A stretch of 64,000 bases of DNA. Source: Orenia marismortui DSM 5156 (lineage in GTDB: Bacteria; Bacillota; Halanaerobiia; Halobacteroidales; Halobacteroidaceae). The stretch covers positions 168,504-232,503 of the forward strand of contig NZ_KB900617.1 in assembly GCF_000379025.1 (NCBI RefSeq), read 5' to 3'. A model generated the notes under the pieces. The model was given only the letters and a program-made list of their open reading frames with translations. It was not told the DNA's origin and did no database searches. Below, piece after piece: positions 3,158 to 28,065 of the stretch; within the stretch, counting starts at the first letter, position 1, and every line of letters begins with the position of its first letter. The position numbers and the translations under genes are program-made.

Positions 3158-3358
3158 CTATTAACCCTCCTATTTTATTAATAATTTAAAGTTTAAAAAT
3201 AATTTAACTATCTATACCTCTTCTAAAAAATTATCTTTTATCTCTATATCAGCAGAAATATAAGTTGATTTATCACCTCCCAAAGATAATAACTTACTTC
3301 CATATGTTATTTAGATCTAAGAAATTAATTATCTTTTTCTCATCTAATGTAAAGCAGT

Positions 3359-4804
3359 TTATTTTTCTAATAACTTATAATATAATTTTATATATTCTTT
3401 TGCTGAATTCTTCCAACTAAAATTACTCTTCATTGCTCTTCTTACTAGCTTAGTCCAAATATCCTTTTGTTGATAAAGGCTAATTGCTCTCTTAATAGTA
3501 GATAACATCTCATTAGCATCATAACTAGCAAAAGTGAAACCATTTCCTTCACCACTTATCTCATCATAAGCTTGAATAGTATCCTTTAGCCCCCCTGTTT
3601 CTCTTACGATAGGTATGCTTCCATACCTTAAACTAAATAATTGGCTTAAACCACATGGTTCATATTTGGATGGCATCAAGAAGATATCACTGCCTGCATA
3701 TATTTTTTGGGCTAAAGTAGCATCATATTTAATATTTGCAGCAATCTTAGTAGGATAAGACCTCGCTGTCTCTTTAAATCTTTCTTCATAGTAACTATCT
3801 CCAGTTCCTAAGATAATAAATTGGATCTCTTCTTCCATTAGTTTATCAATAACAGAAACAATTAAATCTAAACCTTTTTGATCTACTAGCCTTGAAATTA
3901 GAGCTATCACAGGAAGATCAGACCTTTGGGCTAAGCCCATATCTTCTTGTAATCTTCTTTTGTTCTCATACTTACCTCTTAGCTTTTCAACACTGTAATT
4001 ACTATAAATTCTATCATCATTACTAGGATTATTATCTTCATAACTAATTCCATTAATAATCCCATATAAATCATCATCATTCATTCGCATAGCATAATCT
4101 AAACCTTCACCAAATTCAGGAGTTTTAATCTCTTGAGCATAAGTCCTGCTTACAGTAGTAACTATATCAGACATTTCAATCCCCATCTTCATATAATTGA
4201 CACAATTATCATGATGAACCACTCCCAAATCCCAATATTTATCAGGTAGACTTAAAGCATCTTGAAGAACTTCTCTTCCAAATACACCTTGATAACGTAA
4301 ATTGTGAATTGTATAAACTGTTTTAATATCTTTATAGAAGCTATATTTTTGATAATTTTCTTTAAGCATAATACTTAATGCTCCTGTCTGCCAATCATTA
4401 CAATGAATAATATCTGCTTTAAAGTCTATCTGCGCTAACATCTCCAAAACTGCTTGGCAAAAATAAGCAAATTGAAGATGTTTATCATCATTCTCATAAA
4501 GATTAGGTCGATCAAAATAACTCTTATTATCTATAAAATAACTTATCACCCCTCTGTTCTCTAATTTATTTACCCCAACATAATTGTCTCTCCATCCTAG
4601 CTTAGTTCTAAAATGGAGCAGATGTTCTGCCTGCTGCAGATATTCTAAGGCAATTTGCCTATATTCAGGAATAACTAATCTGATATCATGGCCCATTTCT
4701 TTAATTGCTTGAGGCAGAGAACCAGCCACATCTGCTAATCCCCCTGTTTTAACGAAAGGAGTTGCCTCAGAAGCAACGAATAATATTTTCAGTTTTTCTG
4801 TCAT
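3359..4804 (-). CDS. glgA: Glycogen synthase (ADP-glucose type, GT5)
   Basis: 481 aa, full length. It elongates alpha-1,4-glucan with ADP-glucose in the cytoplasm. The signature KTGGLADV is at residues 19-26, binding ADP-glucose, and the C-terminal GT-B motif EPCGLSQLFSLRYG with the ETGGLKDT segment is present. ATG start behind AAGGAGAGA. It is transcribed before glgC. The 834 bases between its start and the nhaC stop hold no convincing ORF; I see only AT-rich sequence and the nhaC terminator. Confidence 0.96.
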   Translation of the reverse strand: MTEKLKILFVASEATPFVKTGGLADVAGSLPQAIKEMGHDIRLVIPEYRQIALEYLQQAEHLLHFRTKLGWRDNYVGVNKLENRGVISYFIDNKSYFDRPNLYENDDKHLQFAYFCQAVLEMLAQIDFKADIIHCNDWQTGALSIMLKENYQKYSFYKDIKTVYTIHNLRYQGVFGREVLQDALSLPDKYWDLGVVHHDNCVNYMKMGIEMSDIVTTVSRTYAQEIKTPEFGEGLDYAMRMNDDDLYGIINGISYEDNNPSNDDRIYSNYSVEKLRGKYENKRRLQEDMGLAQRSDLPVIALISRLVDQKGLDLIVSVIDKLMEEEIQFIILGTGDSYYEERFKETARSYPTKIAANIKYDATLAQKIYAGSDIFLMPSKYEPCGLSQLFSLRYGSIPIVRETGGLKDTIQAYDEISGEGNGFTFASYDANEMLSTIKRAISLYQQKDIWTKLVRRAMKSNFSWKNSAKEYIKLYYKLLEK

Positions 4805-5581
4805 TAGAATCTCTCCTTAATTTACTTGAAGTTATTTTTCTTATCTGATAGTAAATTATCTGAAATAATCAATATAGTACACAAATATACTACTTTATAA
4901 ATTTCACTATGATATTCTATCTATAGCTTTGTAGGAAATGCTTAGACTCTATTATGAATTTTAACCTGATATATAGCAATACCATTATTCTATGAAACTA
5001 TGGTAGAAATTATTTCTAAAATCAAAAATATATTACAAATAATAATTTAGCCTTTGCTAATCCTTATTAAGATTAATATGGAAGTTAAAAAATGATTTAC
5101 AACTGCTTTGACTTTATGCTCTATATTTTGAATAAGTTCTTATAAAGTAGTATCCAATATATATTAAATGCAAAACAATTTCCAAAAATAAGAAATTATT
5201 TACTTTTAATTGAAAAATAAAGCATGGTTGACTTAAGTAGATATTAAGCAAGAATTATAGGGTTAGTTTAAATAAATCATAGATAATAGTGATTAATAAA
5301 TAATAATCAAATAAACCACTCTATCCACTATCTTTAAATATTACCATCTAAAAATATTTAAAATATCCTCTGATATTTTTTACCAAAGTGATTGATAAAA
5401 TTTACCAGTTAGGTTCTGCCGTATTCTTATATGAATTTATTAATGCTTAAAAAAGTAAAGTAATGATTTAAAATTAAAAAATAAGCAAAAAGCAAGATGA
5501 ACTTATTTTAATTCTTCTATAAACAACAATTAAAACTATTCTACCCCAAATTATTTTGGTAAATATTATCAAGCAAATAAA

Positions 5582-5637: not shown

Positions 5638-6951
5638 CTATTTTTCACTCAATCTAAATTTATCAGCCTTATTTAATAAGATCAATCCAATCACAAATAT
5701 ACCTAAAATAAATTGATAATACAATGTAGGGATTATCTCTAAAGGAGAGATTTTGGCCAATGATCCTGCCAATAATACCTGTGCTCCATAAGGAATAACT
5801 CCCTGCCAAACACAAGAGAAAATATCTAATAAACTTGCCGAGGTAGCTTTAGGTACATTATGCTTAGCAGCAATATCTTTAGCTAAAGGTCCAGCTAAAA
5901 TAATAGCAACAGTATTGTTAGCAGTACATATATCAGCTACACTAACTAAAGATAAAATTCCTAACTCTGCCCCACGTTTAGTATTTATCTTCTTACTAAT
6001 TAAATTAAGCAAATAATTAATTCCACCTTCTACTCTAATCATCTCTGCTAAACCACCAGTAAAGAGGGATAATAGGAATATCTCTTGCATTCCTGTAAAA
6101 CCTTCATAAATAAGATTAGCAATCTCTAATAATGTAAAACCACCACTAACTAGTCCAAGAACCCCAGTAAATAGAATTCCTATACCTAATACAACAAAGA
6201 CATTAACCCCTAATAATGCTAAAGTCAAAACTAACAAATAAGGAACAACATTAATTAAACTATAAGTAAACTCACCATCTATTACAACATCCCCACCAAT
6301 AAAAACTAAAATAATTAAAGTAAGTATCGCAGCAGGTAAAACCAATAATAAGTTGGCCTTAAACTTATCCTTCATAGAACATCCTTGAGTCTTAGTTGCT
6401 GCAATAGTTGTATCTGAAATCATAGATAGATTATCACCAAACATGGCTCCACCTACAACAGCTCCTATAGTTAAAGCCAATGATATCCCAGATTTACTAG
6501 CCATTCCAATAGCAATCGGTGCTACAGCACTAATTGTTCCCATAGAAGTACCCATTGCTGTAGCAATGAAAGCTGAAATCAAAAATAGCCCTGGCATAAT
6601 TAAACTGGAAGGAATAAGGGATAAGCCCAAATTAACTGTAGCATCTACACCACCAGTCTTATCTGCTAAATGAGCAAAAGCTCCTGCAAAAAGATAGATC
6701 ATACACATAATAATAATATTACTATTTCCTGCACCACGTATGAATTGATTCATCTTCTCTTCTATACTACTTTTACTAATTAGAAAAGCTACTACTACCC
6801 CCACTAAAGCTGCTACTGGAGATGGCAACTTATAAAAAGCATAATCAACACCCTGAAAATGTAGGTATAGACCTGTTCCCAAAAATAAAGCTAAAAATAC
6901 AATCAGAGGCAATAAATCTAAAAATCTCCCCTTCTTTTCTACTTCTTTCAT
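5638..6951 (-). CDS. nhaC: Na+/H+ antiporter, NhaC family
   Basis: 437 aa with about 11 hydrophobic segments, an NhaC-family secondary transporter exchanging Na+ for H+ (some family members exchange malate/lactate, so the substrate is inferred). The conserved loop GAVVGGAMFGDNLSMISDTTIAA is clear near the middle, as is the later ADICTANNTVAI segment. The start is the ATG at 6951 behind AAGGAGAGATTTTG; the TTG just before it is not needed. It is monocistronic with its own promoter and terminator, and fits a salt-adapted cell along with the Mrp antiporter at 59-64 kb. Confidence 0.88.
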   Translation of the reverse strand: MKEVEKKGRFLDLLPLIVFLALFLGTGLYLHFQGVDYAFYKLPSPVAALVGVVVAFLISKSSIEEKMNQFIRGAGNSNIIIMCMIYLFAGAFAHLADKTGGVDATVNLGLSLIPSSLIMPGLFLISAFIATAMGTSMGTISAVAPIAIGMASKSGISLALTIGAVVGGAMFGDNLSMISDTTIAATKTQGCSMKDKFKANLLLVLPAAILTLIILVFIGGDVVIDGEFTYSLINVVPYLLVLTLALLGVNVFVVLGIGILFTGVLGLVSGGFTLLEIANLIYEGFTGMQEIFLLSLFTGGLAEMIRVEGGINYLLNLISKKINTKRGAELGILSLVSVADICTANNTVAIILAGPLAKDIAAKHNVPKATSASLLDIFSCVWQGVIPYGAQVLLAGSLAKISPLEIIPTLYYQFILGIFVIGLILLNKADKFRLSEK

Positions 6952-15547: not shown

Positions 15548-16228
15548 TTATTTTTTATCCATTTCAGCTTTTAACTTAGCTAACTCATCATCTACAGAAC
15601 CACTTTTATTTAATTCTTCAAACTCAGATTCTAGGTCATCCTTCTCTATTTCATCATATAATTCATTGCTCGCCTCTGCTCTAGCCTTCATCTTATCAAC
15701 CTTAGATGACAATCTATCCAGATCTTCTGCAGCACTTGACTTACCTAAACCACTTAAAGTCTCGTTAATTTCAGTAGTTGCTTTAGCATTTTCAGCTTCA
15801 GCGATCAATTGATCTTGTTTATCTTCAGCCTCTTCAATTCTTGCTCGCAAATCTTCTAACTTCTTCTTATGTAAATCAGCAGTTTTTCTTCTAGCTTTAG
15901 CCTGTTCTTTATACTTATTGTAATTTGTCTCAGCCGTTTGTTTCTTCTCTAAAGCTTTACGTGCTAAATCTTCTTTACTAGCTTCTAAAGCTTGCTTAGC
16001 ACGATTAGTCCAATGTTCCATCTCTTCTTTAGCATCATCACGCTTAGCTTCTACCTCTTTAACTAAAGTAATTGATTTATTTACTGCACTCTTAGCTTGA
16101 CGATATTCATCCTTCATCTTTCTAATCTCTTCTTTAACAACAACTTCAATATTCTTATCTTCCCATTTATCAACAGCCTCATTTGCCTTTCCACTTACTA
16201 TAGTCTTAATACGATCAAATAATCCCAT
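15548..16228 (-). CDS. pspA: PspA/IM30 family phage-shock protein
   Basis: 226 aa, nearly all coiled-coil alpha-helix, with the family start MGLFDRIKTIVSGKANEAVDKWEDK and the KALEKKQTAETNYNKYKEQAKARRKTADLHKKKLEDL core. It is an ESCRT-III-related protein that assembles on damaged inner membrane. Located 57 bases after the DUF4178 gene. In this group PspA typically partners DUF4178 and membrane aminopropyltransferases rather than the PspBC/F system. ATG behind GGAGG. Confidence 0.93.
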   Translation of the reverse strand: MGLFDRIKTIVSGKANEAVDKWEDKNIEVVVKEEIRKMKDEYRQAKSAVNKSITLVKEVEAKRDDAKEEMEHWTNRAKQALEASKEDLARKALEKKQTAETNYNKYKEQAKARRKTADLHKKKLEDLRARIEEAEDKQDQLIAEAENAKATTEINETLSGLGKSSAAEDLDRLSSKVDKMKARAEASNELYDEIEKDDLESEFEELNKSGSVDDELAKLKAEMDKK

Positions 16229-16285
16229 TTTAACTCCTCCTATACTCTTATTAATAGTAAAATTTTAAAAAATAACTACTATGTA

Positions 16286-16807
16286 CTATTTACCTGGATA
16301 ATACTCTAATAGACTCTTTTTAACCTCTTGACCTATACTAATTTCTAACTCATTAACCCACTTCTCTACAGAAACCTGCTCACCATTGCTTGCTTCATAA
16401 TCCCAATACCTAATCCTTTGGCCAGTCTTGGCTCCTACCTGACCTTCAACCATAATATTAGCATTTCCTTCTTCGATCAAAGAATATGCTTGATTATTAA
16501 AAGTTATTTTATTTGGAATTTTTTCTTGCAACTTAGAATAAAGTTCATCTCCTGAATCTAATTTTTTAAATAGCCCTACCTCTAATTCATCATCTTCTTC
16601 AGCAGATAGCCATAAATTATTTTTCCCATCAGAAATATGATAATCATACCATTTATAGCCACCTTCTTCATAATATATCTTTCCTATAACCTTATATTCT
16701 ATTAAGTCATACTCTACAATGTCTCCTATTTGTAGATTAAGAGGTGTTCGAGCTACAATCTTATCTTCTTTTTCTTCCTTTGATTTAAAAAAATCAAAAA
16801 AACCCAC
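16286..16807 (-). CDS. DUF4178 domain protein (PspA partner)
   Basis: 173 aa, mostly beta-strands. LQIGDIVEYDLIEYKVIGKIYYEEGGYKWYDYHISDGKNNLWLSAEED is the DUF4178 signature. A Lys/Glu-rich amphipathic start (MGFFDFFKSKEEKEDK) may touch the membrane. GTG start at 16807 behind GGAGGG. First gene of the minus-strand Psp-type cluster. Biochemical function is not known. Confidence 0.82.
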   Translation of the reverse strand: MGFFDFFKSKEEKEDKIVARTPLNLQIGDIVEYDLIEYKVIGKIYYEEGGYKWYDYHISDGKNNLWLSAEEDDELEVGLFKKLDSGDELYSKLQEKIPNKITFNNQAYSLIEEGNANIMVEGQVGAKTGQRIRYWDYEASNGEQVSVEKWVNELEISIGQEVKKSLLEYYPGK

Positions 16808-16844
16808 TTTAAATCCCTCCTTTATATATAATCATCCAACTTTA

Positions 16845-17030
16845 GAATAAAACCTAAATATCTCTTTATAGATAGAGATTACGACAGTTTTAGCTGCTGG
16901 CTGTTGGCTACTAGCCGCTGGCTTAGAGCTTATAAAAACAATAATAATAGCTAGAGGCTAACAGCTAAAAGCTAGTAGCAAAAGCATCTCAATATATCCA
17001 TTAAATTTCACTTTAAACTTGAATATCTAT
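16845..17030. repeat. Palindromic heptad-repeat element
   Basis: Left flank CAACTTTAGAATAAAACC, then GAGATTACGACAGTTT; right flank CATCTCAATATATCC and ATTAAATTTCACTTTAA. The core has GC at exactly 7-base steps, six units on the left (TTAGCTG, CTGGCTG, TTGGCTA) and five on the right arm in reverse complement. The rest of the gap up to 17328 shows an AATAATAGAAAG hairpin near 17118 and no ORF. Confidence 0.7.
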
Positions 17031-17328
17031 AAGTCCAAATTCTACTTTATTATCTATATTATTATTGAAATATCTTTTGAATAACTTTTGTAAGTAGCTG
17101 ACAAAAGGTAAATAATAGAAAGCTTTCTTTTTATTATTCTATCTCACTATTATAACTCCTTCTTTTGGATGACTTAAAGTGAATAAATTCTTATCCGCTT
17201 TCTAGATTATTTTGTTCCTAGTTATTTTATTTTATACAAATTATATTAACATAAAAATTGATATAACTGTTAAAACTAAAAGAAGCATAAGCTAAATTTA
17301 ATCATTTTGCAAGGAGGAAAAGAGCCAT

Positions 17329-18546
17329 ATGAAAAAACAATATAAGTTAATGGTAGCAGCCTTTGCTACAGTTCCTTTTTTGATGGTTTTAGGAAATTCT
17401 ATGTTAATTCCTGAATTCCCTAAAATTAAATCTTCCCTAAATATTAGTCAATTTCAAGTTGGATTGATGATAACTCTTTTTTCCGCTTCAGCAGGATTAG
17501 CTATCCCTATTCTAGGCTATTTATCAGATAGATATGGACGAAAAAAAATTATTATTCCCTCCTTAATCACTTATGGAATCGGAGGAGTAATTTCAGGACT
17601 AGCAGCTGCAATGCTTAAAGATAAAGGATATTATATTATTCTAGCTGGCCGTATTGTTCAAGGGATAGGAGCAGCAGGTACTTATCCAATTGTAATAGCT
17701 TTAGTTGGGGATATATTCCAATCTAATGAAAGAAGTTCTGCCTTAGGTACTATTGAAGCTGCTAATGGTTTAGGAAAAGTTATGAGTCCGCTATTAGGAG
17801 CAGCAGTAGCACTAATCTCTTGGTATGCTATCTTCTTCTCTTATGCTATCTTAACTATTCATATTACTTTAGCTATATTCTTTATTATCAAAGAACCAGA
17901 AGGTAATACCAAAGAACAGAAATTAAAAGATTATATTAATGAGATTAAAAAGATCTTTAGTGAAAAAGGAGCTTCTTTATTTTTTAGTCTTTTAGCAGGA
18001 ATAACTGTCCTTTTTCTTCTTTTTGGAGTATTATCCCATATTTCTGATATTCTTGAAAGTAAATATCATATTAAAGGCTTAAAAAAAGGATTATTGATTT
18101 CACTTCCTATACTTCTAATGTCTACAAGTTCTTATCTTTCAGGCTTATATCTTAAGAAGCAAGGAAAAAACTTTAAAAAAGTAATGGCACTAGGACTATT
18201 AATAGATTGTATTTCTTTGGCTATCCTACCTTTTTTAGATGGCTTAACTCTTTATCTAGTCTTACTTGCTTTTTTAGGAGTGGGAAATGGAATAGTATTA
18301 CCTGCTTTAAATACTCTAGTTACTAGTGCTGCTGGTAGTGGACAAAGAGGAGGTATAACCTCCATTTATGGTAGTGTGCGATTTCTAGGAGTTGCCGCTG
18401 GACCTCCTATCTTTAGTTTACTCAATGAAATTAGTAAGACAGTAATGTTTTTAACTGCCTCAGCAATAGCTTTAATTGTATCTATTTTAGCTTATCTATT
18501 AATTAAAGAAGAAATCTTATTATCTAAAGGCACAGATAAAGGTTAA
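17329..18546 (+). CDS. MFS transporter, drug/efflux type
   Basis: 405 aa, 12 membrane segments. The MFS loop 2-3 motif is clear (GYLSDRYGRKKI, about residues 62-73), and the segment GRIVQGIGAAGTYP marks helix 4-5 as in H+-driven drug antiporters of the Bcr/CflA or tetracycline-efflux type. Inner membrane. ATG behind AAGGAGG. It is a single gene, convergent with the tiny membrane ORF at 18543. Substrate unknown. Confidence 0.9.
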   Translation: MKKQYKLMVAAFATVPFLMVLGNSMLIPEFPKIKSSLNISQFQVGLMITLFSASAGLAIPILGYLSDRYGRKKIIIPSLITYGIGGVISGLAAAMLKDKGYYIILAGRIVQGIGAAGTYPIVIALVGDIFQSNERSSALGTIEAANGLGKVMSPLLGAAVALISWYAIFFSYAILTIHITLAIFFIIKEPEGNTKEQKLKDYINEIKKIFSEKGASLFFSLLAGITVLFLLFGVLSHISDILESKYHIKGLKKGLLISLPILLMSTSSYLSGLYLKKQGKNFKKVMALGLLIDCISLAILPFLDGLTLYLVLLAFLGVGNGIVLPALNTLVTSAAGSGQRGGITSIYGSVRFLGVAAGPPIFSLLNEISKTVMFLTASAIALIVSILAYLLIKEEILLSKGTDKG

Positions 18547-18570
18547 TTATCTCTGCCTTTATCTTTTTTC
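18526..18570 (+). terminator. Terminator overlapping the end of the MFS gene
   Basis: AAAGGCACAGATAA pairs with TTATCTCTGCCTTT, then ATCTTTTTT. The stem spans the stop codons of both convergent genes. Confidence 0.85.
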
Positions 18571-18713
18571 TTTAGTTTATCCTTTTTATTTATATCTAAA
18601 TATCTACTTATATAATAGCTATAATTATCGAATATCTTAAAATTCGATTTAGTTGGATGCCTTTTAATAAGCCAAAATAATAATAAAACTAATATAGTCC
18701 AAATCCAAAACAT
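18543..18713 (-). CDS. Small 56-aa single-pass membrane protein
   Basis: Begins MFWIWTILVLLLFWLIKRHP and ends in a Lys/Asp-rich tail. One membrane helix (about residues 2-17) and a basic cytoplasmic tail. The ATG at 18713 is preceded by AGGAGGTGATTATA, one of the best ribosome binding sites in the window, which is the main evidence that it is real. It overlaps the MFS stop by three bases in convergent orientation and follows the DUF441 gene by 12 bases. Function unknown. Confidence 0.7.
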   Translation of the reverse strand: MFWIWTILVLLLFWLIKRHPTKSNFKIFDNYSYYISRYLDINKKDKLKKKDKGRDN

Positions 18714-18725
18714 TATAATCACCTC

Positions 18726-19184
18726 CTAATTAATAACTAAAGAATATAAATGGTAAAAAATAGCAGTTAAGCCTGCTGCTAATAATGGGCCTACAGGTAC
18801 TCCACCAAAAAAAACAATACCTATAATTGAACCAAATAGCATCCCAATAATTAACTGTGGCTCTTCATCTAACAATCCTATTCCTGCTCCAACAACTTTA
18901 GTAGCTAATATCCCACTAATCAAAGCAAAAAAGGATAAAATTGATTTGTAGCTCTTAATAATCTCTTTAATTGATAAACTCTCATCTATGAGAGGAACTA
19001 ATACTGATAAAAGTAAAAATACCAAGCCAATCTTTAAGCCTAAGTTATCTAATATGACCAATGCATTATCTAACTTAGTTAGCTTTAAAAAGAACAAAAT
19101 TATACTTGCTATAACTAATAAATCTGATTTAGATAATAAGCCTATTGAAAAAATTATAAAAAGAAAGATATAGCCTGTTTTCAT
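18726..19184 (-). CDS. DUF441/UPF0756 family membrane protein
   Basis: 152 aa, four to five membrane segments, with the family-like ILATKVVGAGIGLLDEEPQLIIGMLFGSIIGIVFFGGVPVGPLLAAG end. Resembles B. subtilis YtwI. Function unknown. ATG at 19184 behind AAGGGG. Forms a two-gene unit with the 56-aa ORF. The 689 bases upstream hold no gene on either strand apart from the protease promoter and leader. Confidence 0.85.
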   Translation of the reverse strand: MKTGYIFLFIIFSIGLLSKSDLLVIASIILFFLKLTKLDNALVILDNLGLKIGLVFLLLSVLVPLIDESLSIKEIIKSYKSILSFFALISGILATKVVGAGIGLLDEEPQLIIGMLFGSIIGIVFFGGVPVGPLLAAGLTAIFYHLYSLVIN

Positions 19185-19562
19185 TCAACCAACCCCTTAT
19201 CTCTATCGCCTAATTATTAAAAGTTTATGCTCTATAATCAAATAATAGAATAAGTCTATAATCTAATTAAAACTACCAGAACAATTAGATTGTCTTATCT
19301 TTGAGAGTTATTACTTTTCAATCTATTAAAAACTTATAAATCACTTTACTTCCCTAGCCTTTTATGCTCCTCATAATTAGAAGAAGATATTTTACCATCT
19401 GATATCGATTTTAAAATAACTTATAATATTTTCAAATAAATATTATAGTTTTTAACACTCTACTCATTAGTTCACTAGCTTTAATCAAAGAATTTATTCA
19501 CTATATTCCCAATATAATTTAAAATCTAAATTCAATTAAATTGCTAGTAAATAATCCTTTTT

Positions 19563-19590
19563 TTACATGGTGGTAATTAATCCCATGTAA
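19563..19590 (+). promoter_or_regulatory. Inverted repeat upstream of the subtilase promoter
   Basis: TTACATGG and CCCATGTAA arms around an 11-base centre, 20 bases upstream of the -35. A possible regulator site; no family is recognised. Confidence 0.4.
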
Positions 19591-19609
19591 TTTTTTATCA
19601 AAAAATACA

Positions 19610-19639
19610 TTGACATCCTTTTGGCAGATGTCTTATAAT
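19610..19639 (+). promoter_or_regulatory. Promoter of the secreted subtilase
   Basis: TTGACA (19610-19615), 18-base spacer, TATAAT (19634-19639), then AAAGTTATATTTTTCCTTTA. The same hexamers, spacing and downstream sequence occur before the C25 protease at 22304. The 235-nt leader has two further AGGAGG/AAAGGAGGTGAT sites with no usable start codon after them. Confidence 0.8.
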
Positions 19640-19873
19640 TAACTAAAGTTATATTTTTCCTTTAAATTCTATAAAAAGGATTGTTTTGGTTTTGTTATTT
19701 TTATTTCTTGTGATGGAAATATCATCAAATTTTACTTCTTATAAAAATTAAAATTCAGGAGGTAAAAAAGACAAATACAATATAAAGGAGGTGATACTAT
19801 ATACTGAATATTATTTTTTATAGATTTAAGGGTTTAAAGATTTAAAGTAAAATAAGAAAACAGGAGGAGAATT

Positions 19874-22036
19874 ATGAAAAAAAATACATATTTAATGTTG
19901 ATAATGATGGTTGCGATGGTTTTATGTTCAGGCTTTTATTCTTTGGAAGTTAACGCTTATGGTACAATAGATTCAAATGATTATGTAGAAGGACAATTGG
20001 TAATCTCCCTTCAGGAACCTGCCGAATTTTCAATACAAAACACTGACATTATAGCTCTAAGTCAAATCTCTACTATGGAGCAAAATAACTTTAAAGTAAT
20101 TGATTCTATTTTACCTGCTCAAAACAATTATGAAGATGAATTTAAAGCAAAAGTAATTAAGAATATGGGATTTGTCTACCTTGTAGAATATTCAACTGCA
20201 ATTGACTCTATAGATCAAGCAATAAAAGAGTTAGAAGGATCTTTAAAAAATAGTGGCTTAAAGATTAGATTTATTGAACCAAATTATAAATATAAGTTTA
20301 TAAATACTGTTAGCGATAAGAAAGAATTTACTCCTACTAGTATGCATAATAATCAAAAATGGAATTATGAGATGATAAAAGCTCCTAAAGCCTGGGAAAT
20401 AACCACAGGTTCTCAAGCTGTTAAAGTGGCAATTTTAGATTCAGGAATTGATCCAGATCATATTAACTTAGAAAATATCTTGGATAAAAACTTAAGAAAA
20501 AACTTTAGTAGTGGACCAGATGAAGATTTAGTTGGTCATGGTACTCATGTTGGTGGTACAGTAGCAAGTTATGGTGAAGTTTCTGGTGTTATGCAGGATG
20601 TTAGTCTGATTAGTGTGAAAGTAGGTTGTACTAGCGGTCCTGAAGAATTTGCAATTATAAAAGGATTAACATATGCAGCAGAGATTGATGCTGATGTAGT
20701 TAATATGTCTTTTAGTGGTCCTTACAATCAAGGAATAGAAGAAGCAGCTACACTTGCTTATAACGATGGTACAATCCTTGTAGCTGCCGCCGGAAATAGC
20801 AATAGTTCTAATATTAGATATCCAGCAGCTTATCCTAATATAATTGCCGTGGGTGCAGTGGATTCCACTAGGGAAAAAGCACCTTTTTCTAACTATGGTG
20901 AAAAATTAGAGCTTATGGCTCCTGGAGTAGATATCTATAGTACTATCCCTGATGATTTATATGCTTTAAAATCAGGAACATCTATGTCATCGCCACATGT
21001 TGTAGGAGTGGCAGGATTGATGAGAGCTGTTAATCCAGATATCACTCCAGAAGAGGCTAGAGAAATCTTAAAAAATACAGCTCAAGAAGCTGGTGATAAA
21101 TATTATTATGGTTATGGCATTGTAGATGCTTATGAAGCAGTAAAAGCGTCTAAAGATCTCAATACTCCTCAATCAAACTATGAGCAGGTATACTTCAGAG
21201 GTACACCAAATTCCTGGGATACAACTGCAATGGAGCTTGTAGATGATTATACTTGGGAAACAACAATTACTTTTACTGATAATAGTAGATTTAAATTTGA
21301 TATTTATGGAGATTGGAGTTTGAACTTTGGTGATAATGAACCACGAGACGGATATGCTGATCAAAATGGAGCAGATATCTATGTATATGATGGCGGAACC
21401 TATAAGCTAACTTTCAATGACAATACAAAACAATATAGCTTAAGCAAAAATCAAATTAAAAGTTCAGCTACAATATCATATACAATTAATACAGGATCTC
21501 TTGAAGAACTACTATACTCTAAAATAAAGTTAAAGAAAGATGGAGTATATTATGGAGAATATATCATAGGAAATAATTCTAACGCTATAGCTAGAACAAT
21601 AATAAATGATTTACCAGTAGGAAATTATGAAGCTATTTTAGATTTAGTAAAAGAAGGTTATAAGTATACAGGAAATGTAGCTTTTAACATCACAGCAGGT
21701 GGCCAAATATTAGAAGAGAATATGGCAGTCACTAAAGAAGAATACCAAAATTATCAAAGTAACTACGATCAAGTCTACTTTAGAGGTACTCCAAACTCTT
21801 GGGATAATCAAGCAATGGAACTTGTAGCAGACCATACATGGGAAACTACAGTTACTTTTGCAGCCAATAGTAGATTTAAATTTGATATCTACGGAGATTG
21901 GAGTTTGAACTTTGGGGATAATAATAAAGATGGATATGCCGACCAAGATGGAGATGATATCTATGTCTATGATGCAGGTACCTATAAAGTAACCTTCTAT
22001 GATGATACAAAACAATATATTTTGGTAAAACAATAA
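19874..22036 (+). CDS. Secreted subtilisin-like serine protease (S8) with C-terminal starch-binding-like modules
   Basis: 720 aa. Signal peptide 1-29, propeptide to about 160, then the S8 domain with Asp189 (AILDSGID), His222 (GHGTHVGG), oxyanion Asn308 (AAAGNSN) and Ser370 (SGTSMSSPH), all intact. From 433 on come two about 85-residue beta modules starting VYFRGTPNSWD and ending FNDNTKQY, with a different 100-residue beta domain between them (527-630). The modules resemble carbohydrate-binding X25/CBM-type sandwiches; ligand unproven. The last 616 bases are almost identical to the end of the next gene. Starts at ATG behind CAGGAGGAG. Confidence 0.93.
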   Translation: MKKNTYLMLIMMVAMVLCSGFYSLEVNAYGTIDSNDYVEGQLVISLQEPAEFSIQNTDIIALSQISTMEQNNFKVIDSILPAQNNYEDEFKAKVIKNMGFVYLVEYSTAIDSIDQAIKELEGSLKNSGLKIRFIEPNYKYKFINTVSDKKEFTPTSMHNNQKWNYEMIKAPKAWEITTGSQAVKVAILDSGIDPDHINLENILDKNLRKNFSSGPDEDLVGHGTHVGGTVASYGEVSGVMQDVSLISVKVGCTSGPEEFAIIKGLTYAAEIDADVVNMSFSGPYNQGIEEAATLAYNDGTILVAAAGNSNSSNIRYPAAYPNIIAVGAVDSTREKAPFSNYGEKLELMAPGVDIYSTIPDDLYALKSGTSMSSPHVVGVAGLMRAVNPDITPEEAREILKNTAQEAGDKYYYGYGIVDAYEAVKASKDLNTPQSNYEQVYFRGTPNSWDTTAMELVDDYTWETTITFTDNSRFKFDIYGDWSLNFGDNEPRDGYADQNGADIYVYDGGTYKLTFNDNTKQYSLSKNQIKSSATISYTINTGSLEELLYSKIKLKKDGVYYGEYIIGNNSNAIARTIINDLPVGNYEAILDLVKEGYKYTGNVAFNITAGGQILEENMAVTKEEYQNYQSNYDQVYFRGTPNSWDNQAMELVADHTWETTVTFAANSRFKFDIYGDWSLNFGDNNKDGYADQDGDDIYVYDAGTYKVTFYDDTKQYILVKQ
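21421..22036 (+). repeat. Near-identical 616-bp tail, copy 1
   Basis: Aligns without gaps to 24985-25600 (offset 3564). By eye there are seven mismatches, with none in a stretch of over 450 bases from about 21510. It encodes the middle beta domain and the last binding module. Confidence 0.9.
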
Positions 22037-22082
22037 TTATTGATTTTACAAATCAAGTAAATTATAAAGTTAAGATTTAAGA

Positions 22083-22119
22083 AAAAGCTTAGTCTTGAAA
22101 ATTCAAGACTAAGCTTTTG
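22083..22119 (+). terminator. Terminator of the subtilase gene
   Basis: Perfect 17-bp stem AAAAGCTTAGTCTTGAA / TTCAAGACTAAGCTTTT with an AA loop. The outer 11 bases of each arm are the same as in the palindrome at 25839. Confidence 0.8.
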
Positions 22120-22280
22120 TCATTAAAAATATATATTAGATTAATATCTACTTTAGTAATCTAATTAAATTTCACCTACCCTTGATTAAAAGCTTAAATT
22201 ATTTTTAATAATAAATTTCATTGTTGAATTACTAATATTAATCTATTCACCAATTTTTTTAAGAATAGAAAATTAGATAA

Positions 22281-22296
22281 TGTGATTTTTATCACG
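22281..22296 (+). promoter_or_regulatory. CRP/FNR-like palindrome upstream of the C25 protease promoter
   Basis: TGTGATTTTTATCACG fits TGTGA-N6-TCACN, centred about 51 bases before the predicted transcription start. Single site, so tentative. Confidence 0.4.
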
Positions 22297-22303
22297 AAAG
22301 CTA

Positions 22304-22333
22304 TTGACAAGCTTTTGCCTAATACCTTATAAT
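22304..22333 (+). promoter_or_regulatory. Promoter of the C25 protease
   Basis: TTGACA (22304-22309), 18-base spacer, TATAAT (22328-22333), then AAAGTTATATTTTACCTTTA, matching the subtilase promoter region in hexamers, spacing and leader. Confidence 0.8.
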
Positions 22334-22468
22334 GGAATCAAAGTTATATTTTACCTTTAATTTCCATAGAAAGGAGGATATTTGATATTTTTGGTTATTT
22401 TGTTGGAGGAATTGGCACTAGCTTTTAAAACCATAAGTAGATAAGTATTTTATAAGGAGGAGTTAATA

Positions 22469-25400
22469 ATGAAAAAATTACATATTTATTTAATTATCTT
22501 GTTGTTAGTAACATTCTTTTCAATTAATGTTTTTGCATCTTCTGAGTGGGTATCTCTAGATAAAACCAATGATAGTACTTCTAAAAATCCTCAAATCGAA
22601 AGTAAATTAATAAAAGATCCAGATAATCAAGCAAATACTAACTACACTATTAATATTAAATTATCAGGCTTTTTTTAAACTTTAAAAGAAGTAGAAAATG
22701 AAGAATTTTCTCTAATCAATATTCCCAGTTGGGAAACTCAAACAGAAGCAGGTAAACCAGCAATCCCTATCCAGCAATTAATGTTTAAAATCCCAGATAA
22801 CACAACCCCAGAAGTTAGTATAGTTAATAAAACTGAAAAAACTTTTAATAATATAAATATCTTCCCTACTCAACCCTTCCCTTCAGATGAAGTCGGTAAC
22901 TATAGTAATCCTCCCTTTACTAAAGATGAAGTCACTTATAATAGTGATAAATTTTTCCCTAAAAGTAATATCTTTAATACATCAATTGTTTGGATGAGAA
23001 ATCATAAGGTTTTAGTTGTAGATATTGCTCCAATTAGAGTAAATACTGCCAAGAAACTATTAGTTGTTAATCCAAGCCTTGAATTAAAGATAACATTAAA
23101 AGAAAACCTTGATAGTAATTCATCTTCTGACTCAAAAGATGAATTAAAAAGTCTAGAATATGATCAATCAATGAGTTCAATGATTAATGGATTTAATAAT
23201 TTCCAAGATTCAATTGATACTCTTCAAAACAATAATAATTTAAGCAAATATTTAATTTTAATGGATGATCAGTTTGCAGAAAATAATACTTTAAATCAAT
23301 TTATCACTTGGAAGAAAGAAACAGGTAATAATGTAAGAGTAATCAAAACATCTCAAGTACCTGCAGCTATTACAGGTGCACCAACCCATGAGGAAGTTCT
23401 CTCTTATTTAAGAGGTTTATCAGATCAAGAGTATCCTGAATATCTCTTACTTATTGGTGATGAAGATGAGGAAAATGGAGTAGCAGCCAAAAGCTTTAGT
23501 ACTTTAAACGGTGGCTATACTGACTTATATCTATCTTGTCGTACAGATACAGACTATATACCTGATTTATTTATTGGAAGATTGCCTGCATCTACTAACG
23601 AAGAATTAACATCTATGCTTAGTAAAGTATTAGAAATGGAAAAAAATCCACCTAAAAGTCCGATGTATGATAAGATTCTTGTAGCTGGTCAAATACAAGA
23701 TCGCGATCACAATAATAAGGCAGATCGTTTATTCTGCGAAACCGCTGATGCAATTGCCACATATTTTGAAAATGACTTAGATGGTTTTGATTATACAGTT
23801 AGCAGGGCTATTGTTAATCCAAATAATATAACTTCTACTGGTACATTTAATAATTATTCATCATGGGGGATACTATGGAAAAATTCTAATGATGAAGATG
23901 CAACACTTGGTTCACGCATCTATAATACTTTCTCTTCTAACTCTGATGCAAGATATAAAATTAATCAAAATATAAATCAAGGTGTAGCTATAGTACAGCA
24001 TCGAGATCATGGTGGAAGAACTCTTTGGGGAGACCCACGCTATACTTCTTATGATGTTAAAAATCTAGAAAATGGAAGTAATAGACCATTATTATTATCA
24101 TTCAACTGTCTAACTGGTAGTTATTTCTATTCAAATAACTTTGTTGATGCCTGGTTAAATCATAATAATGGTGGGGCCTATGCAGCTATTGCTGCTACCG
24201 ATGTTAGTTTTTCTGGACCTAATGATTGGTTTACTCATGGAATTTACTCAGCCTTTTTGCCAAGTTATAGAGACTTTATAAATACCTCTACAAATCCAGA
24301 CTGGTATAACTCATTACCAGAACCTAACTTTGCTCAAGAAGGAAATTCTAAGAAGCTTGGTCAAATTATAAACTTCGGTAAAAATTATGTTTATCAAGTA
24401 TATGGTGGTAGCAATTCAGCAAAATATGTCTATCAATTATTCCATCTATTTGGAGATCCTGAAGCATATATTCAATTACACAACCCAGAAAAATTAACTA
24501 TAAGCCATCCTACTACTACTACAGATTCTACAGTTACAGTTACTACAGGTGAGGATAATCTTAAAGTAACATTATATAGCGAAAAATTAGGAATTCACCA
24601 AAGCAAGCTGAGTTCTGATGGTAGTGCTACTTTTAATATAAACCCATCTACGGAAGGAATAATAAATGTTACAGTTACAGGTTATGGTAAGCGACCATAT
24701 AAAGGAACAATAAACTTCGCTTCAAACTCAAGTACTAAATCAAATTATGATCAAGTCTATTTTAGAGGTACACCAAATTCCTGGGATACAACTGCAATGA
24801 AACTTGTAGACGATTATACTTGGGAAACAACGGTTACTTTTACTGATAATAGTAGATTTAAATTTGATATTTATGGAGATTGGAGTTTAAATTTCGGAGA
24901 TAATGATAATGATGGCTATGGAGATGAAAATGGATCAGATATCTACGTTTATGATGCAGGAACTTATAAGGTAACTTTCAATGACAATACAAAACAATAT
25001 ACCTTAAGCAAAAATCAAATTAAAAGTTCAGCTACAATATCATATACAATTAATACAGGATCTCTTGAAGAAATACTATACTCTAAAATAAAGTTAAAGA
25101 AAGATGGAGTATATTATGGAGAATATATCATAGGAAATAATTCTAACGCTATAGCTAGAACAATAATAAATGATTTACCAGTAGGAAATTATGAAGCTAT
25201 TTTAGATTTAGTAAAAGAAGGTTATAAGTATACAGGAAATGTAGCTTTTAACATCACAGCAGGTGGCCAAATATTAGAAGAGAATATGGCAGTCACTAAA
25301 GAAGAATACCAAAATTATCAAAGTAACTACGATCAAGTCTACTTTAGAGGTACTCCAAACTCTTGGGATAATCAAGCAATGGAACTTGTAGCAGACCATA

Positions 25401-25600
25401 CATGGGAAACTACAGTTACTTTTGCAGCCAATAGTAGATTTAAATTTGATATCTACGGAGATTGGAGTTTGAACTTTGGGGATAATAATAAAGATGGATA
25501 TGCCGACCAAGATGGAGATGATATCTACGTTTATGATGCAGGTACCTATAAAGTAACCTTCTATGATGATACAAAACAATATGTTTTAACAAAACAATAA
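22469..25600 (+). pseudogene. Secreted gingipain-like cysteine protease (C25) interrupted by one in-frame stop
   Basis: The ATG at 22469 (behind AAGGAGGAG) starts a signal peptide (MKKLHIYLIILLLVTFFSINVFAS) and 69 codons that end at TAA 22676-22678. The same frame then stays open to 25600; codons 22679-22780 read on as a normal C25 propeptide (TLKEVENEEFSLINIPSWET...), so a single nonsense codon, not a frameshift, splits the gene. The C25 domain has His in VQHRDHGGRTLWG and Cys in SFNCLTGSYF, both intact. The tail has the same two binding modules as the subtilase. Without the first 69 codons there is no signal peptide. Readthrough, recent mutation or sequencing error are all possible. Confidence 0.85.
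24985..25600 (+). repeat. Near-identical 616-bp tail, copy 2
   Basis: Second copy of the block at 21421-22036, in the C25 protease gene. Upstream of it the first binding modules of the two genes are also clearly related but less identical, so the boundary of recent exchange lies near 24985. Confidence 0.9.
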
Positions 25601-25740
25601 AGTGACTTCTTAGTTTCAAAGTGAGCTTATGCCAAGTCGATTCGGTAGTACCAGGATCAACATTGCGTAATTAAAATTGAAAAAGCAGTGTTAGAGTCGC
25701 TTAGATATCGGATAAATTATTGCTTTTTAAAATCAAATAA
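25601..25740 (+). other. Non-coding, relatively GC-rich stretch after the C25 protease
   Basis: No ORF. The part around 25620-25670 is richer in G and C than its surroundings. AAAAAGCA near 25681 and TGCTTTTT near 25730 could form a long-loop stem acting as a terminator. I do not recognise an RNA family. Confidence 0.4.
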
Positions 25741-25838
25741 TCTAAATAAACTTACACATATCCAATTAAAGTATAACTTATGAATCTAAGAATTTTATTG
25801 TTATTAGAAAAGATTCTCCTTCCAGTAAAAATTGAAAT

Positions 25839-25882
25839 AAATAAAAGCTTAGTATGGGATATCCCATACTAAGCTTTTATTT
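25839..25882. terminator. Bidirectional terminator, 44-bp perfect palindrome
   Basis: Centre at 25860/25861; arms contain AAAAGCTTAGTATGGGAT. Lies between the C25 protease and comB, whose stop is next to it on the minus strand. Confidence 0.9.
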
Positions 25883-26573
25883 TGCCTTTATTGTATATTG
25901 GAACAATATCCATTTTTTCAGAAGTTAAAATATAATCTATATCAACTTCTCTTCCTAATTTAATAAGATTCTTTCCACTCTTTGATGATTTAATTACACT
26001 CGCCAGATTATCCTTGTTTTGTAAATAGGTATTGTAAGCTACCAAAGCTCTATCACTTAACTCTATCCCACCATAGTTCAGCAAAATACTTATAGCTTTT
26101 CCAGCAGTGATAAAATCATCTAAAGCAAACTCCCCTCTAGTTCCTGCACAACAAAATACAATATCATTTTTTTCCTTCAAATAATTAATTATTGCCTTCA
26201 AATTTAATAATGAAAATACTATAACCTCTTGAGCTAAACCTAATCTTACAAAACATTTGGTTCCATTAGTAGTAGTTAAAATAATTTTTCTATTTTCTAC
26301 TACATCTTTGCTATAGTCTAAAGGAGAATTTCCTAAATCAAATCCTTCCACCTTAATTCCATCTCTCTCTCCTGTTAATAAACAATTATCCTCTTTAGTT
26401 GCTAAATCTTTGGCCTCTTCTATATTAACTACTGGTATAACCTTTTTAGCCCCATTAGCTAAAGCTGTTACAATCGTACTTGTTGCTCTTAAAGTATCAA
26501 TTACAATTGCAGTCTTACCCTTTATTTCACCTTCTTTAATTCTATCTGCAGAAAAAATCACATCTATTTTCAT
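25869..26573 (-). CDS. comB: 2-phosphosulfolactate phosphatase (ComB)
   Basis: 234 aa from the ATG at 26573 (MKIDVIFSAD), the usual ComB start, behind GGAG; the longer ORF upstream has no site. Removes phosphate from 2-phospho-3-sulfolactate to give sulfolactate. Family motifs are TAIVIDTLRATSTIVTAL, LLTGERDG, GFDLGNSP and TTTNGTKCF. It follows the comA gene on the same strand by 262 bases that hold no ORF. Confidence 0.92.
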   Translation of the reverse strand: MKIDVIFSADRIKEGEIKGKTAIVIDTLRATSTIVTALANGAKKVIPVVNIEEAKDLATKEDNCLLTGERDGIKVEGFDLGNSPLDYSKDVVENRKIILTTTNGTKCFVRLGLAQEVIVFSLLNLKAIINYLKEKNDIVFCCAGTRGEFALDDFITAGKAISILLNYGGIELSDRALVAYNTYLQNKDNLASVIKSSKSGKNLIKLGREVDIDYILTSEKMDIVPIYNKGKIKA

Positions 26574-26835
26574 CAAATCACACTCCAACTTATTGATATT
26601 GTAATTACAATTAGATTTTTTATTATTCTTAGTAGTAATATGCTTCAATACTAAACTTTGTGATCAAAGATAATATTAATTACAAGAAAAGTATAAAGCT
26701 TAAGATATATTTAAAGATTAAAAATGACTATTCATCCCAAGAATATTTTCTCAAAAAGATTACCTTCAAAATATCGTGATATAAGAAATCAATTCTTAGT
26801 AACACTATATACCATTAATCATTATCTTGCAACTA

Positions 26836-27675
26836 TTAAAGATCCATTTCAATAATTGTATCTGAATTATGTTTAATATCTAAGGTTCTTTTAAATGTAT
26901 CTCCGCGCAACCCAGTTCTTAATGACTCTAAAGCTATAATATCTCCAGAATTAATGTTACCTAAATTAACATTGTTACCTAACATATTAATAAAATAAAC
27001 CTGTTGTTTTTTTAAAGGGGCTTCCCAGATAATATCTGTTGGGTGAGGCGCTTCTAATAATAATTTTTTGAGTTTGAACTCATCAGCTTCTCCACTATCA
27101 TCATAAATAGAAACACCTTTTCCCGATTCTCGAGCCTCAATAATCACCTTATATGCTCCATCTGCTATATCTCTTTTTAACTGTTTAATCATTTGATGAG
27201 TTTTAAATTCTTCTTCCTTATCTTTCTTTCCAATTTCAGTAAAGACTTTAAAACCTAAATTTTTGGCTTTTTTTATAATTATACTTCTTAAATTAGAGGT
27301 TAAATCTATTGTCCCATCAGAAACTTCTATTGCAGTAAACCCTAAATCTTTAGCCTTATATAAATATTCTTCCCACTTATCTTGAACAATTGCTACTTCT
27401 AAAAATGTACCACCTGGATAAATATCTAATCCATATCCTCTAACAAGATCTATCTTCTTTTGCAGTAATTTTTTAGGATATAAAGCTGATGTACCAAAAC
27501 TTAGCTTTAAAAAATCAATATAATCTGCTGCTATTTCAAGTAAATCCTCTGTTTGATAGATCCCAAGTCCTTTATCTAAGACCATAGTTAATCCATTTCT
27601 TCGTGGTTTATCTTCTCGACCTACTAAAGGAAATTCAATATCTAAATCCCATCCATTCTTAAATGATCTATCCAT
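26836..27675 (-). CDS. comA: Phosphosulfolactate synthase (ComA)
   Basis: 279 aa, TIM-barrel ComA family. It adds sulfite to phosphoenolpyruvate to give phosphosulfolactate. Visible segments are RNGLTMVLDKGLGIYQTEDLLEIAADYIDFLKLSFGTSALY, PGGTFLEVA, EVSDGTIDL and IIEARESGKGVSIYDDSGE. With ComB it makes sulfolactate; in methanogens this leads to coenzyme M, while in Bacillus the YitD/YitC-type pair belongs to sporulation. No ComC or later gene is nearby, so sulfolactate is the likely end product here. ATG behind AAAGGTG. Confidence 0.92.
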   Translation of the reverse strand: MDRSFKNGWDLDIEFPLVGREDKPRRNGLTMVLDKGLGIYQTEDLLEIAADYIDFLKLSFGTSALYPKKLLQKKIDLVRGYGLDIYPGGTFLEVAIVQDKWEEYLYKAKDLGFTAIEVSDGTIDLTSNLRSIIIKKAKNLGFKVFTEIGKKDKEEEFKTHQMIKQLKRDIADGAYKVIIEARESGKGVSIYDDSGEADEFKLKKLLLEAPHPTDIIWEAPLKKQQVYFINMLGNNVNLGNINSGDIIALESLRTGLRGDTFKRTLDIKHNSDTIIEMDL

Positions 27676-27792
27676 TATATCACACCTTTATCTTTTATTT
27701 TTATTATCTAACTTTAGATAGTTAAAGATTTAACAATCTAAAGTTTCTTAAACAACATTATTTAAATAAAAATCTATTCTAAATAAAATAAT

Positions 27793-28065
27793 TTACAATT
27801 TCATTCCTATAAAGATTAATGTAACCCCAAGAATAATAACCGACATTTGTAATAAGGAAAACTTTCCTGCTAATCCAATCAAACCTAGACTAGTTACCAA
27901 AATCATTACAGTAGGACCCACTAATGCCAAGAATGAATTAATTTGAAAGGCAGTTTCCCTAGAATTGAATTTAAACATTAATAATGCCGCTGTAAATTCA
28001 ATCATTCCAGAGATAAATCTAATCATTGACATCCCTAGGACAATCCTATCTTTTATAATGAACAT
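27793..28065 (-). CDS. YqhV-like DUF2619 membrane protein
   Basis: 90 aa from the ATG at 28065 behind GGAGG, the better start; the longer ORF to 28110 lacks one. Three membrane segments, with MIRFISGMIEFTAALLMFKFNSRETAFQINSFLALVGPTVMILVTSLGL matching YqhV (DUF2619) of sporulating Firmicutes. Function unknown. Monocistronic. Confidence 0.82.
   Translation of the reverse strand: MFIIKDRIVLGMSMIRFISGMIEFTAALLMFKFNSRETAFQINSFLALVGPTVMILVTSLGLIGLAGKFSLLQMSVIILGVTLIFIGMKL

Follow-up and report, generated by a model that had tools for sequence, protein, structure and literature searches.

Two adjacent genes of Orenia marismortui DSM 5156 encode proteases of unrelated classes, a serine subtilase and a gingipain-like cysteine protease, and have both ends in common but not their middles. 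They are located in a window of 64,000 nucleotides, the whole stretch of DNA that was analysed. The common tail probably targets both proteases to α-glucan, with its linker and second module recently converted between the genes. Binding to α-glucan is putative and suggested by the predicted fold of the tail modules, by their conserved residues and by the enzymes on which relatives of the module occur. The targeting role and the conversion mechanism are likewise what we infer from these comparisons.

The two protease genes and their common ends

The subtilase gene (19874..22036, + strand) encodes 720 residues comprising a signal peptide, a propeptide, the S8 domain, a module M1, a linker and a second module M2. 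The S8 domain matches PF00082 with an E-value of 1.6e-52 (179.1 bits, cut-off 21.8), and the motifs DSGID, HGTHV and GTSMSSPH, contributing Asp, His and Ser, are present at positions 189, 222 and 368. Subtilisin BPN' is matched by the protein with an E-value of 4.3e-52. A stem-loop with a T-run at 22081..22120 (+ strand; -22.6 kcal/mol for 22080-22125) is a probable terminator; it is missing from the list of the consensus terminator scan.

The second gene (22469..25600, + strand) is composed of a signal peptide, a propeptide, the C25 domain, an Ig domain, M1, the linker and M2. Peptidase_C25 is matched with an E-value of 4.9e-53 (181.1 bits, cut-off 23), and Peptidase_C25_C was also reported. 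The motifs RDHGG and NCLTG, which we take to be the His and Cys active-site motifs of this family, are found at 408 and 442 of the open reading frame from 22781. The two catalytic domains are thus unrelated, as the preliminary description had stated. The C-terminus is formed by M2, and a type IX C-terminal sorting domain was not reported in Pfam and NCBIfam scans at E-values up to 1. The C25 and comB genes converge on a terminator with a 20-bp stem (25839..25882).

Upstream, the genes share a promoter and leader. The promoter TTGACA-18-TATAAT is present at 19610-19639 for the S8 gene (promoter and leader 19592..19680, + strand) and at 22304-22333 for the C25 gene (22286..22375, + strand). Both promoters have 12 of 12 consensus bases and are the sole promoter-like sites of this quality in the region. 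When the 500 bases upstream of each start were compared, 70 of 90 columns were identical with a score of 76; the maximum was 45 in 1000 dinucleotide shuffles and 43 in 490 comparisons with other segments of the window. With up to 3 mismatches, a 25-base core of the leader occurs twice in the 3.46-Mb genome, both times here, while a reversed-pattern control gave 0 occurrences. A search of Rfam (positions 16000-28000, E-values up to 1) reported no riboswitch or known RNA in the common leader.

At the other end, the copies 21421-22036 and 24985-25600 (616 bp, offset 3564) align without gaps. The preliminary description had counted about seven mismatches; there are eight, at 21438, 21509, 21964, 21967, 22019 and 22024-22026 in S8 coordinates. 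The longest exact run is 454 bp (21510-21963), in line with the more than 450 identical bases given there. The homology extends beyond the 616 bp and includes M1 (~91 residues), an Ig-like linker (~104 residues) and M2 (91 residues). M1 of the S8 protein (21176..21448) and of the C25 protein (24743..25012), all tail elements being on the + strand, are identical in 238 of 270 nucleotides (88%), and exact runs inside this pair are patchy. The linkers (21449..21760 and 25013..25324) agree in 311 of 312 nucleotides and the M2 copies (21761..22033 and 25325..25597) in 267 of 273. M1 and M2 represent the same module in two copies, with 80% protein identity within the S8 protein. Identity stops at the common stop codon: the 60 nucleotides 3' of it are 30% identical, which is background, and the 60 nucleotides 5' of the tail are 28% identical.

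In the C25 gene the precursor is interrupted. The start at 22469 is preceded by AGGAGG, but an in-frame TAA in the propeptide region (22676..22678, + strand) separates the signal peptide and the first propeptide residues from the rest. This stop may reflect decay, a base-call error or read-through, and the C25 product may be lost in the sequenced strain. It argues against a functioning protease pair. The C25 gene might be decaying, with the tail identity as a by-product of two nearby direct repeats. In favor of this, the next ATG (22781) lacks a signal peptide. Propeptide homology picks up directly 3' of the TAA (profile positions 42-177, 60.9 bits). On the other hand, the remaining 939 codons are open, the active-site motifs are kept, and the promoter and start region appear intact. 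A single base-call error would give the same picture. We regard this reading, in which there is no working pair, as unlikely.

Predicted fold and ligand of the tail module

A structure model of M2 was built from four sequences with a pLDDT of 91.1. The model of the full tail is of low confidence (pLDDT 62.6) and was used for the linker alone, for which it predicts, with medium confidence, an Ig/CnaB-like fold (Z-score of 10.4 to 4q1z). The best 10 of 995 chains aligned to the M2 model (Z-scores of 12.6 to 8.1) are all starch-type proteins. These are SusF (4fe9, 12.6), SusE with maltoheptaose and with α-cyclodextrin (11.2 each), X25-2 of Sca5 (7rpy, 11.1), a Bacillus pullulanase (2wan, 9.4), domains of the amylase Amy703 (8.8 and 8.2) and a Klebsiella amylase (8.3 to 8.1). 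They are followed at rank 11 by the CBM69 domain of AmyP (5x5s), with a Z-score of 6.8 and 24% identity over 90 residues; the module profile did not retrieve this domain by sequence at E-values up to 1. At lower ranks (Z-scores of 5 to 6), AMPK-β is mixed with unrelated Hsp70 domains, and these matches are no evidence by themselves. Foldseek without re-alignment also places SusF, SusE and X25 at the top, with a best E-value of 3.7e-3. From these comparisons, a SusE/SusF/X25-type starch-binding fold is predicted with high confidence for the 91-residue module.

The putative binding residues point in the same direction. An 11-row profile of the module matches the glycogen-binding domain of AMPK-β (1z0n) with an E-value of 7.8e-4 and pullulanase with 1.8e-3. 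Trp14, Lys40 and Trp47 of the module, conserved in 10, 11 and 11 of the 11 copies, align with Trp100, Lys126 and Trp133 of AMPK-β, which are described as contacting β-cyclodextrin (PMC9788615). Two matching tryptophans of a plant CBM48 protein are reported to be required for starch binding (PMC4339375).

Assignment to an established family is less clear. The CBM53 profile PF16760 remains under its cut-off of 27.6 bits in both proteins (22.7 bits for S8, 12.5 for C25). For proteins of the window at E-values up to 1, neither the X25 profile PF22058 nor the CBM48 profiles PF02922 and PF16561 were reported; PF22058 reaches 13.5 and 14.3 bits (cut-off 27) in relatives of the module. According to PMC9112005, single X25 lobes of Sca5 do not bind without their partner, so the fold by itself is no proof of binding.

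The genome carries four copies of the module, all within the two protease genes. A profile search for the module in all genomes had been proposed; carried out on 398 genomes of the phylum, it matched one, the own genome. With linker and M2 as the query, 2 of 61 genomes matched, namely the own genome and one with a remote, weak match (E-value 6.8e-4, 28% identity). The module was found by tblastn in 3 of 72,556 records of a plasmid collection, and a pattern scan of genome contigs yielded one relative; the strict peptide patterns of that scan lead to an underestimate of how widely the module occurs. A phage origin was considered and rejected: there was no phage match, and none of 24 pattern stretches in viral contigs was confirmed. 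Four other records contain 13 module matches in eight open frames, of which five are GH13 enzymes, one is a GDE_C protein (a weak match, E-value 3.6e-6) and one a glucose/sorbosone dehydrogenase (GSDH), which is no α-glucan enzyme. The eighth is a frame of 184 residues without a domain scan. Most relatives of the module elsewhere are therefore on α-glucan enzymes. In the own genome, 24 frames account for 33 GH13 matches, and the module is absent from its GH13 proteins.

Alternatively, the tail could be a surface anchor whose modules hold the proteases on a polysaccharide of the producer's own envelope or matrix instead of a food polymer. A carbohydrate-binding fold has no fixed ligand. When N-termini were inspected by eye for what we take to be the lipobox motif, neither protease had one, whereas clustered GH13 proteins show lipoprotein-like N-termini. 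In addition, the adhesin regions of RgpA and Kgp are described as keeping fragments cell-associated (PMC10319874). However, the nearest folds and most of the sequence relatives are starch-directed, and the absence of the module from all others of the 398 phylum genomes, like the one weak remote match of linker and M2 among the 61, would be odd for an envelope ligand common to relatives. An anchoring function is thus improbable. A domain for peptidoglycan or LPXTG/SLH-type anchoring was also sought and not found in the Pfam and NCBIfam scans. A weak aRib match in the tail (20.6 of 27 bits) was observed. Concerning the preliminary description, which had suggested a module for surface or polysaccharide attachment, a polysaccharide, putatively α-glucan, is favored, while peptidoglycan or the cell surface receives no specific support.

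If α-glucan is the ligand, the tail would consist of a starch-binding-type module, an Ig-like spacer and another starch-binding-type module. Through its two modules the enzyme would stay attached to material rich in starch or glycogen, or to a glycoprotein bearing α-glucan, and proteolysis would then take place there, beside the many GH13 enzymes of the organism. Against targeting count the PF16760 scores below cut-off, the GSDH relative, the Foldseek E-value and the own GH13 proteins without the module.

Silent-site divergence within the tail

Between the genes, dS (Nei-Gojobori, scripted) is 0.46 for M1, 0 for the linker and 0.054 for M2, with 19.7 of 57, 0 of 72 and 3 of 57 silent sites differing, respectively. 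M1 and M2 within one gene differ with a dS of ~1. Linker and M2 thus form a low-dS block with sharp limits relative to M1, which is the signature of gene conversion. When the 39 mismatches were shuffled over the 855 aligned columns, none of 20000 trials reached a run of 454 bp, the longest being 302. The uneven dS points to an older common tail in which linker and M2 were homogenised recently, by gene conversion or copying. The recent copying or conversion of the C-terminal modules that had been proposed is supported in this respect. Gene conversion between the tandem genes would be the simplest known mechanism for the identity of linker and M2. Probably, promoters and tails were similar at the outset; linker and M2 would then have become nearly identical through later conversion or recopying between the direct repeats, which are spaced 3.56 kb apart. 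The locus would thus be a compact natural example of gene conversion in a pair of genes with catalytic domains of separate ancestry.

The identity had also been considered a possible artefact of a collapsed or copied repeat. The window contains no N. Differences between the two loci are found within the tail and on either side of it; both tails therefore exist. Part of the near-identity could still be an assembly effect if, in the middle of the 454-bp run, both copies had been given the same consensus. This run is longer than common short reads, and identical repeats of hagA, rgpA and kgp are reported to have defeated automated assembly (PMC5266723). The genome sequence, in which one 16S is complete and another partial, has the appearance of a scaffolded assembly whose repeats, including those of the rRNA, were left unresolved. 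The partial 16S match (C1:586203-586822; ~6204-6823 of the extracted locus L040) contains a 100-N gap. The mismatches within the tail, the distinct M1 copies and the different flanks nevertheless belong to two real tails, and near-identity is also found in the sequence adjoining the mismatches. An assembly contribution is quite improbable. Copying of the complete tail in one recent step, with M1 evolving faster and no later conversion, would need only one event and fits the tail as one contiguous block, but is very unlikely, since silent sites are uneven in a way that protein selection does not explain and the patchy exact runs of M1 suggest repeated exchange.

Origin of the locus and comparison with known systems

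Both proteases lie in a segment (19185..25868) between a DUF441 gene and comB. In two other genomes of the genus, the flanks, with MFS and DUF441 genes on one side and comB and comA on the other, are colinear, and nothing at this place matches either protease in either genome. The protease pair was therefore either inserted in this lineage or lost on two occasions. The adjoining comB and comA genes (25869-27675) are of the sulfolactate/coenzyme M type. At the empty site of one of these genomes (~4630-4770 of the extracted locus), a GC-richer, repeat-like stretch is present, which could represent a small mobile element or a repeat.

When 13 genomes were searched with the S8 part, the closest relatives were two proteins of 51% and 48% identity from other genera of the same family. 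Their catalytic part ends at the same place and is followed by RicinB_lectin_2 (E-value 7e-24) and F5_F8_type_C (3.6e-13), respectively. The remaining matches outside the query gene have at most 43% identity. Upstream of nine S8 relatives and at two empty-site loci (11 loci), no counterpart of the leader with a local score of 40 or more was detected. C25 is present in two of the 61 relatives and in two of the 398 genomes of the phylum, the own genome counted in each, and no C25 relative was found on plasmids at E-values up to 1e-5. The sole other C25 of the phylum set carries fn3-CBM25 repeats (CBM_25, E-value 1e-56). CBM25 is a starch-binding family. In this other C25, as in the present protein, the starch-type modules are C-terminal and accompanied by Ig-like spacers, but the module family is unrelated; no second protease was recognised by eye among its neighbouring reading frames. 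Its repeats are near-identical within the one protein, likely by recent internal duplication. Tandem CBM25 modules are treated in PMC5715617.

These arrangements could indicate a cassette that flanks protease cores of unrelated classes with the same promoter-leader and starch-binding tail. C25 would also have been combined with starch-binding modules on two or more separate occasions, the modules being of different families. We put this forward tentatively and consider it doubtful. If true, a starch specialist would direct proteases of both the serine and the cysteine type to α-glucan particles.

The module shares the predicted fold over its full 91 residues with SusE/SusF and X25 (4fe9 of B. 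thetaiotaomicron, 7rpy of R. bromii, 2wan of B. acidopullulyticus), and modules are paired there and here. Here, in contrast, they are on proteases, binding is predicted and PF22058 is unreported. CBM69 is located on a marine α-amylase (PMC5355875), and the flanking cysteines of AmyP are absent from the present modules. With the gingipains RgpA and Kgp of P. gingivalis, the locus has in common a C25 domain, an Ig-like domain and repeats shared by protease genes, which in P. gingivalis are described as recombining (PMC5266723). Both gingipains, however, are C25 enzymes and their repeats are cleaved adhesins, while here one enzyme is a subtilase and the modules are of the starch-binding type.

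Proteases with carbohydrate-binding modules are also represented by M60-like mucinases and by S08A enzymes with CBM32 or CBM5_12. Such modules have been proposed to target glycans (PMC3267712), and CBM32 is reported to be required for extended mucins (PMC13003899). That survey of peptidases (PMC3267712) tested CBM5_12, CBM32 and CBM51 alone, and its main text contains neither C25 nor starch. Our literature search for starch-binding domains on subtilases or other proteases yielded nothing beyond one paper on a yeast genome. Most known proteases with carbohydrate-binding modules are mucin-degrading or chitin-type cases. The present locus combines starch-binding-type modules with two classes of protease simultaneously, its genome is rich in GH13 enzymes, and a C25-CBM25 parallel exists elsewhere. 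The species-level insertion would thus encode secreted proteases of two unrelated classes with one α-glucan-binding tail, plausibly a new use of known parts and not a new kind of system. If binding is true, starch users would target proteolysis to α-glucan, perhaps stripping protein off granules.

In a separate region of the genome (C1:804956-834162), 10 of 11 listed reading frames were scanned; seven of these carry GH13 and another carries CBM26. The N-termini of the GH13 proteins in this cluster (C1 ~804-836 kb) resemble lipoprotein signals, and it is a probable surface α-glucan system. A lipoprotein-like protein with Big_4 Ig repeats is located inside the cluster (3258-4913 of the extracted locus L075).
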